A stretch of DNA of 64,000 bases from an uncultured Clostridia bacterium (GTDB taxonomy: Bacteria; Bacillota; Clostridia; Christensenellales; CALVMC01): contig CALVMC010000006.1 in the NCBI GenBank assembly GCA_944342015.1, positions 1-64,000 of the forward strand, given 5' to 3'. Shown here piece by piece: positions 12,855 to 17,393 of this stretch (position 1 is its first letter; each line of letters begins with the position of its first letter). The position numbers were made by a program, and so were the translations under genes. Below the pieces are notes generated by a model. The model did not search any database. It was given only the letters and a program-made list of their open reading frames with translations, and was not told where the DNA came from.

Positions 12855-12928
12855 AACAAAAATAAATTAATTTTTTATGTATTAAATCTTATTCAAACGG
12901 AAACACTTATTTTCGTAAGGAGATTATT

Positions 12929-13234
12929 ATGAAAGATTTAAAATGTACAACCGCAAACTGCGAACACAATAAATTAGGAAAATGCCGTGCCGGAATAATC
13001 CATATAGACACAAAAGGATTCTGTGCCACAAAAATGAAAAGAGACGGCGGAATACTCGCTCAGAACTTTTCCGACTTCGAAGCAGCAAACACCGAGGAGA
13101 TGGAAAACGAAACCGATACCTTTGTAGAATGTCAGGCAAATTGCGTATTCAATAACAACAATGTATGCACAAAAGACGGAATAAAAGTATCGGACGGAAT
13201 ATTCAAAACAAAATGTTTCAGTAAAAGAACTTAA
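12929..13234 (+). CDS. DUF1540-type cysteine-rich protein, two repeats
   Basis: 101 residues with two copies of a small Cys module. Residues 1-31 have C6, C11, C19 and C32, and residues 68-99 have C69, C73, C80 and C96. This spacing is typical of DUF1540 proteins of Clostridia and Bacilli, where the cysteines probably bind a metal; function is unknown. ATG at 12929 has AAGGAG 7 nt upstream. It is a single-gene unit ending at a bidirectional terminator shared with rplL. Confidence 0.85.
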   Translation: MKDLKCTTANCEHNKLGKCRAGIIHIDTKGFCATKMKRDGGILAQNFSDFEAANTEEMENETDTFVECQANCVFNNNNVCTKDGIKVSDGIFKTKCFSKRT

Positions 13235-13326: not shown

Positions 13327-13704
13327 TTATTTGAGTTCGACAGTTGCGCCTGCTTCTTTGAGTTTAGCTTCCATTTCAGCTGCGGCTTCTTTGCTAACGC
13401 CTTCTTTAATAGGCTTCGGAGCGCCGTCGACAAGAGCCTTAGCTTCGCCGATACCGAGTCCGGTGATTTCACGAACTGCTTTGATAACTGCGATTTTATT
13501 AGCGCCTGCTTCTTTAAGAACAACGGTGAATTCCGTTTTTTCTTCAGCGCCTGCTGCGGGAGCTGCGCCGCCTGCTGCGGGAGCTGCAACTGCCATAGCT
13601 GCTGCGCTTACGCCGAATTCGTTTTCTATTTCCTTAACGAGATCGTTAAGTTCGATTACTGTTAAACCTTTGATTTCATCTAATATTTTTTTAATATCTG
13701 CCAT
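13327..13704 (-). CDS. rplL: 50S ribosomal protein L7/L12
   Basis: 125 residues: N-terminal dimerisation helices, an Ala/Gly/Pro-rich hinge (about 35-53) and a C-terminal factor-binding domain with the [12 protein letters not shown] and [12 protein letters not shown] segments. It forms the mobile stalk that recruits EF-Tu, EF-G, IF2 and release factors. It follows rplJ by 19 nt and is the last gene of its operon. Confidence 0.97.
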
Positions 13705-16402: not shown

Positions 16403-16552
16403 TTATTTAGTTTCTTTATGCAAGGTATGTTTTTTGCAAAACTTACAATATTTTTTAAGTTCCAACCTGTCGGGCGTGTTTTTCTTATTTTTATAATTGT
16501 CGTAATTGCGTTGTTTACATTCCGTGCAAGCTAAAGTTATTCTGGTATTCAT
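16403..16552 (-). CDS. rpmG: 50S ribosomal protein L33, zinc-binding form
   Basis: 49 residues beginning [13 protein letters not shown]. Two CxxC pairs (C9/C12 and C36/C39) mark the zinc-containing L33 paralogue. It binds 23S rRNA near the E site. It is the first gene of the secE-nusG-L11-L1-L10-L12 operon, with a strong promoter just upstream and GGAGG before the ATG. Confidence 0.95.
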
Positions 16553-16597
16553 ATTTTAGCCTCCAAAAAAATTACACCCCTTTAAAGGTGCTTATTT

Positions 16598-16626
16598 AGT
16601 ATAACAAATGAAATTTGTTAAGTCAA
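16598..16626 (-). promoter_or_regulatory. Promoter of rpmG-secE-nusG-rplKAJL
   Basis: Minus strand: -35 TTGACT (16621-16626), 17-nt spacer, -10 TATACT (16598-16603). Start near 16591. The short leader contains an imperfect CACC/GGTG inverted repeat around TTTAAA. Confidence 0.85.
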
Positions 16627-16757
16627 ACGATTTTTAATATATTTTAAAATAATAAATTTAAAAAAAATATCGGTTTTTACAAGAAAGACACAAATCACAT
16701 TTTAAATCCTAAAAGAATAAATTGTTTATGGGAACCGTCGCCCGAAAAGGAGGTATT

Positions 16758-16898
16758 ATGTTTGCTACGAATGATTTGATATTATATTATATAATTTTAA
16801 GCAGTTGCCGTTGCAGATGCTGCCCGTGCAGTTGCAATAACTGTTCGGGAAGGCGCTGCTGCGGATTCACCCAGACAGGTTTTGGAAACTTTTTTTAA
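16758..16898 (+). CDS. 46-residue cysteine-rich mini-protein, unknown
   Basis: A short plus-strand gene with a textbook ribosome-binding site (AAAAGGAGG, 5-nt gap to ATG at 16758) and a strong terminator right after the stop. The product starts MFATNDLILYYIILSS, then has nine cysteines in 19 residues (C17, 19, 21, 22, 24, 26, 29, 34, 35) with Arg, Pro, Ser and Asn, and ends GFTQTGFGNFF. It resembles no family I can name. Possibilities are a metal-binding peptide, a spore or coat mini-protein, or a precursor of a disulfide-rich or modified peptide; no maturation gene lies nearby. A clear sigma-A promoter was not found. Confidence 0.65.
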   Translation: MFATNDLILYYIILSSCRCRCCPCSCNNCSGRRCCGFTQTGFGNFF

Positions 16899-16906
16899 TT
16901 AAACTA

Positions 16907-16940
16907 ACAAAAAACGCCGATTTCGGCGTTTTTTGTTTTA
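16907..16940 (+). terminator. Terminator of the cysteine-rich mini-gene
   Basis: A perfect 13-bp stem ACAAAAAACGCCG/CGGCGTTTTTTGT with an ATTT loop, whose 3' arm supplies the T run. It begins 8 nt after the stop codon, supporting the mini-gene as a real transcription unit. Confidence 0.85.
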
Positions 16941-17132: not shown

Positions 17133-17393
17133 TTAATTATTTAAAGACTTTATATTTATTTCTATACCGTTTGTAATAATTTCATTCTTTTGCGACATAT
17201 AAGAAGCAGTTTCGGTATCAGACAAAGTAGTATAAGAAGAAGGCGGAGCGACTTTATTTGCTATTTTCGGAAAATTATAAAATAATATCGAAAGAACAAC
17301 CAAAACTGCAATAAAAACAAGTATCGAAGAAATTATAAACAAAAATATGCTTCCACCGGCCTGCATCTGAATACTTGTTTTATTTTTTCCCAT
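17133..17393 (-). CDS. Small single-pass membrane protein, unknown
   Basis: 86 residues: a short basic, Gln-rich N-terminus, one strong membrane helix (about 15-40, FLFIISSILVFIAVLVVLSIL) and a polar C-terminal tail of about 45 residues. I do not recognise it. AAGGTGG precedes the ATG, and a TTGACA promoter lies directly upstream, so it is an independent small gene in the tuf-rpmG interval. The tail is Ser/Thr/Asn-rich and probably extracytoplasmic or disordered. Confidence 0.7.
   Translation of the reverse strand: MGKNKTSIQMQAGGSIFLFIISSILVFIAVLVVLSILFYNFPKIANKVAPPSSYTTLSDTETASYMSQKNEIITNGIEINIKSLNN

Follow-up and report, generated by a model that had tools for sequence, protein, structure and literature searches.

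A probable gene for a small cysteine-rich peptide, found in one genus of a Clostridia order, between rpmG and tuf

Is the short cysteine-rich reading frame between rpmG and tuf in an uncultured Clostridia bacterium a gene and, if so, what might its product do? In the window, i.e. the whole 64,000-nt stretch of DNA that was analysed, the open reading frame (ORF) occupies positions 16758-16898 of the plus strand (46 codons), and its product, MFATNDLILYYIILSSCRCRCCPCSCNNCSGRRCCGFTQTGFGNFF, consists of a hydrophobic N terminus (residues 7-16), a core with nine cysteines within the 19 residues 17-35 (at positions 17, 19, 21, 22, 24, 26, 29, 34, and 35) and a conserved tail, RRCCGFTQTGFGNF. A Shine-Dalgarno (SD) sequence, AAAAGGAGG, is located at 16745-16753 on the same strand, 4 nt before the ATG, and an intrinsic terminator (16906-16937, with perfectly paired arms of ~15 bp and a T-rich tail) starts 7-8 nt after the stop codon. 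The first-pass annotation, which had described the SD, the ORF, the cysteine count, and the terminator, is borne out on all of these, with a terminator stem of 14-15 bp where it had given 13 bp. Its remark that routine gene calling would miss so short a gene is questionable, since 141 nt exceeds the usual 90-nt length limit of Prodigal. The window contains one other stretch of nine cysteines in 19 residues (~13549-13608, plus strand), which results from reading the Ala-rich rplL linker, encoded on the minus strand, in a shadow frame. Cysteine density alone is therefore weak evidence, and the rplL shadow calls for caution in scans that rely on it.

The ORF is flanked on one side by rpmG (16403-16552, minus strand), followed by secE-nusG-rplKA, and on the other by a gene for an 86-aa protein, tuf (minus strand), and fusA. 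The 86-aa gene (17133-17393, minus strand) adjoins tuf, converges on the ORF and encodes a single-span membrane-like protein with no significant Pfam match. The terminator hairpin can be read as a terminator on both strands, and it is probably bidirectional and may be shared with this converging gene. No metal-related gene was seen among the adjacent genes, which are ribosomal or translational. A gene on the opposite strand, where the TGC cysteine codons would read as GCA alanine codons, was considered and rejected: there is no ORF of at least 30 aa, and the shadow frames contain stops.

A copy of the ORF was found in an uncultured Eubacteriales MAG (CASFOZ010000005.1), the sole other genome compared from the genus and family of the window. 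In this sister species it also lies between rpmG and tuf, with its position, orientation, and reading frame unchanged, the SD invariant and the terminator stem (CGCCGA..TCGGCG) largely kept, and the two products (MFATNDLILYYIILSSCRCRCCPCSCNNCSGRRCCGFTQTGFGNFF and MFTANDFIMLYIILNSCRCRCCPCGCNNRSRRRCCGFTQTGFGNFLN) are identical at 36 of 45 aligned residues. Among 396 genomes of the order these two are the only credible copies. The other 394 and IMG/VR yielded no relative, and in those relatives that were inspected no gene like it lay upstream of rpmG. Other matches in the order were weak (best E 1.6e-4, with an internal stop; many others also with stops) and were set aside as noise of cysteine composition; those in a Streptomyces and a planctomycete covered short cysteine stretches only and were also treated as noise. 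The data support a gene that appears restricted to one genus of a Clostridia order. Loss of the frame in relatives, which the first-pass annotation had named as evidence against a gene, is not seen within the genus, in the two species that represent it, while beyond the genus the search for conservation recovered no copy.

The two ORFs differ at 21 nucleotides over 45 codons, 13 of them at third positions, with no indel and no stop. Codons 1-16 carry one silent and six replacement changes, codons 16-45 carry eight synonymous and three nonsynonymous changes (NG86 dN 0.043, dS 0.68, dN/dS ~0.06), and at codons 36-45 all five changes are silent (P 0.002). When equal numbers of transitions and transversions were placed at random in the ORF, which is how all P values for these counts were obtained, 0.9% of placements left the protein as well conserved as is observed and free of stops (P ~0.009). 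The cysteine core (residues 17-35), with three silent and three replacement changes, is compatible with chance (P 0.37). It is thus chiefly the tail GFTQTGFGNF, rather than the cysteines, that speaks for coding, and the selection tests are weak because they compare only two species. For the ORF, dS (0.60) and dN (0.10) are comparable with the values for the 86-aa gene next to it (0.45 and 0.16), which is fast evolving between both species.

Could the ORF nevertheless be a chance frame inside a conserved intergenic region? The comparison of just two species leaves room for this, as does the occurrence of nine-cysteine stretches that shadow another gene. However, the SD, the ATG, the open frame, and the terminator have jointly been kept over 21 substitutions without a stop, which is more than chance. 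The excess of silent changes argues in the same direction, as do a core richer in GC (0.60) than its flanks (0.19-0.30) and an opposite strand with no ORF of at least 30 aa. With both the ortholog and the silent-site excess against it, we consider a chance frame improbable. Since the sister species keeps the same place and the same reading frame, we judge from this comparison that the ORF is probably a real protein-coding gene and, its frame being under coding selection, that it is probably translated. The first-pass annotation had called the gene convincing, and both the ortholog and the substitution pattern uphold this.

Conservation is not limited to the ORF. A 35-nt leader, ATTGTTTATGGGAACCGTCGCCCGAAAAGGAGGTA (16721-16755, plus strand), which includes the SD, is identical in the two species, in contrast to the variable ORF and the likewise variable sequence farther upstream. 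The leader block with the SD is present in a single copy in its genome and, with up to 3 mismatches allowed, occurs once in one other genome of the order; GAATANATTGTTTATGGG, at the same tolerance, was found 17 times per genome against 9-10 times for the reversed control, mostly as sites with 3 mismatches. A longer product starting at the in-frame ATG at 16728 was rejected because no SD precedes that ATG and the upstream codons show no silent change, and the absence of silent change around it argues for a signal at the nucleotide level. The invariant leader presumably controls transcription or translation of the ORF. Upstream of it, a short block conserved between the species, AAATCACATTTTAA (16692-16705, plus strand), may be a promoter or operator element. 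An intergenic block at 16593-16657, in which the species differ at ~2 of 65 nt, contains the rpmG promoter (minus strand, TTGACT-17-TATACT) and an A/T-rich upstream element; the near invariance of this A/T-rich sequence, which surrounds the rpmG promoter and extends upstream of it, is consistent with an UP element. A weak sigma-A-like site on the plus strand (TTGTTA-17-TATATT, 16615-16643, 9/12 match) falls within the stretch that also holds the divergent rpmG promoter; sites of this kind often occur there by chance, and this one has a weaker -35 element in the sister species. The locus, between rpmG and tuf, is best explained as a self-contained transcription unit with its own leader, SD, ORF, and terminator.

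The cysteine codons may also form an mRNA hairpin (16808-16864, plus strand) of 23 pairs and -32.9 kcal/mol, or -26.9 kcal/mol in the sister species. The locus might accordingly encode a structured small RNA, composed of leader, hairpin, and terminator, in which the ORF is secondary or untranslated. The leader is indeed better conserved than the ORF, the hairpin is more stable than dinucleotide shuffles (z -3.2), 22 of its 23 pairs are kept in the sister species, and one compensatory change from A-U to G-C would explain the replacements S25G and C29R. Yet retention of the pairs (P 0.40) and the compensatory pair (P 0.19) are both compatible with chance, the hairpin is only marginal against synonymous-codon shuffles (P 0.03 and 0.04), and downstream of it the changes fall at third codon positions of the frame. 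Rfam returned no match above the gathering score, and when leader and hairpin were combined in a covariance model, a search of 200 genomes retrieved the two known loci and nothing else. We regard a small RNA as unlikely. A dual-function transcript, in which the invariant leader and the cysteine-codon hairpin would respond to a cue such as metal or the supply of charged tRNA-Cys and govern production of the genus-specific peptide, with RNA and protein co-selected, appears very improbable.

What, then, might the peptide do? Eight of the nine cysteines are kept in the sister species, C29R being the loss, and CxC and CC motifs are present. The N-terminal residues differ between the species yet stay hydrophobic. 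AlphaFold placed a helix at residues 4-16 with low confidence (mean pLDDT 49), in a model too poor to serve as a structure-search query, and, at ~10 residues, the hydrophobic stretch is shorter than is usual for a transmembrane helix. No Pfam family was found for either ortholog at E up to 10, and NCBIfam and PHROG gave no match to the peptide, as expected for an orphan gene; a phage origin is likewise not indicated by PHROG or IMG/VR. A sequence search of the PDB returned only von Willebrand factor (E 1.4), which we attribute to chance.

The most likely mechanism, to which we assign a probability of roughly 0.4, is that of a genus-specific, membrane-associated, metal-binding small protein. 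A short hydrophobic N-terminal helix would be embedded in the cytoplasmic membrane or lie on its surface. The tail, rich in Arg and Cys and in a reduced state in the cytosol of an anaerobe, could bind thiophilic metal (Zn, Cu, or Fe) via its CxCxCCxCxC cluster, so that the peptide of 46-47 residues might serve as a small buffer for metal or work together with a membrane protein. The metal role is proposed by analogy with two groups. FeoB-associated Cys-rich peptides are also short, with a hydrophobic N-terminal segment followed by a Cys-rich tail. Bacterial metallothioneins (SmtA, PflQ2MT, PmtA) are small and Cys-rich with CxC motifs, and SmtA also has nine cysteines. In contrast to metallothioneins, the peptide has no histidine, a hydrophobic N terminus and an Arg-rich core, and it matched no metallothionein profile in Pfam or NCBIfam. 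FeoB-associated peptides are common in Firmicutes (PMC8749426), but the peptide described here has no Pfam match to them even at E 10, and its gene does not lie beside feoB. The mechanism is thus an analogy to two groups, and profile membership was found in neither. The suggestion made in the first-pass annotation of a metal-binding or disulfide-rich peptide is compatible with the sequence, though the cysteine core has no measurable excess conservation and one cysteine is an arginine in the ortholog.

The main rival is a disulfide-linked role in a spore layer, modelled on CdeC and CdeM of C. difficile and CotY/ExsY of the B. cereus group, with the Cys-rich tail cross-linked in the coat or exosporium. 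Sporulation is plausible because the genome encodes spoIVA and two genes that we take, from gene order and length, to be sigE and sigG, and the lineage probably does sporulate. Both clostridia and bacilli that form spores carry very Cys-rich spore surface proteins (PMC7677010, PMC6101409), and the outer layers of clostridial spores contain such self-assembling proteins (PMC7677010). A gene for a 101-aa DUF1540 protein (12929-13234, plus strand; PF07561, E 1.2e-8), a domain also found in the C. difficile exosporium protein CdeA, lies 3.5 kb away behind a sigma-F-like promoter identified by eye (GTATT-N15-GGAAACACT, 12879-12907). In a comparison by eye with consensus sequences, a sigma-E-like CATATACT was also seen before spoIVA and a sigma-F-like GTATA..GGCGAAAAAT before sigG, whereas no sigma-E/F/G-like promoter was seen upstream of the ORF and its leader matches no such consensus. 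For the sporulation sigma factor that had been suggested to act on the gene, candidates are encoded in the genome, but no promoter of that type was recognised upstream of it. Moreover, CdeC, CdeM, and CotY/ExsY are several times longer than 46 residues and gave no profile match, coat proteins do not usually start with a hydrophobic segment, and neither genome yielded a member of the SASP family, so that sporulation itself is no more than probable. A spore-layer role is possible, though on balance doubtful. Size, hydrophobic start, a basic Cys-rich tail and an own terminator would also suit a small secreted, modified, or toxic peptide (a RiPP-like precursor, a bacteriocin, or a type I toxin). 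For a RiPP precursor, however, conservation is reversed, with a variable start and a conserved Cys tail, and no maturation gene was seen among the adjacent genes inspected; no basic residue precedes the hydrophobic part, so there is no ordinary signal peptide, and no convincing antisense promoter opposes the ORF. This class of explanations seems quite unlikely.

Like the lineage-specific smORFs in the GMSC catalogue, the gene is a conserved small ORF with no functional annotation, which is usual for such genes (PMC11364881). It is credibly an orphan small gene of a kind already known, with a leader that is unexplained. On its own it changes no established picture; it adds, on evidence open to checking, one more credible small-protein gene from an uncultured genus of clostridia that belongs to no database family, and its tightly conserved leader provides a concrete handle on how the gene is controlled.
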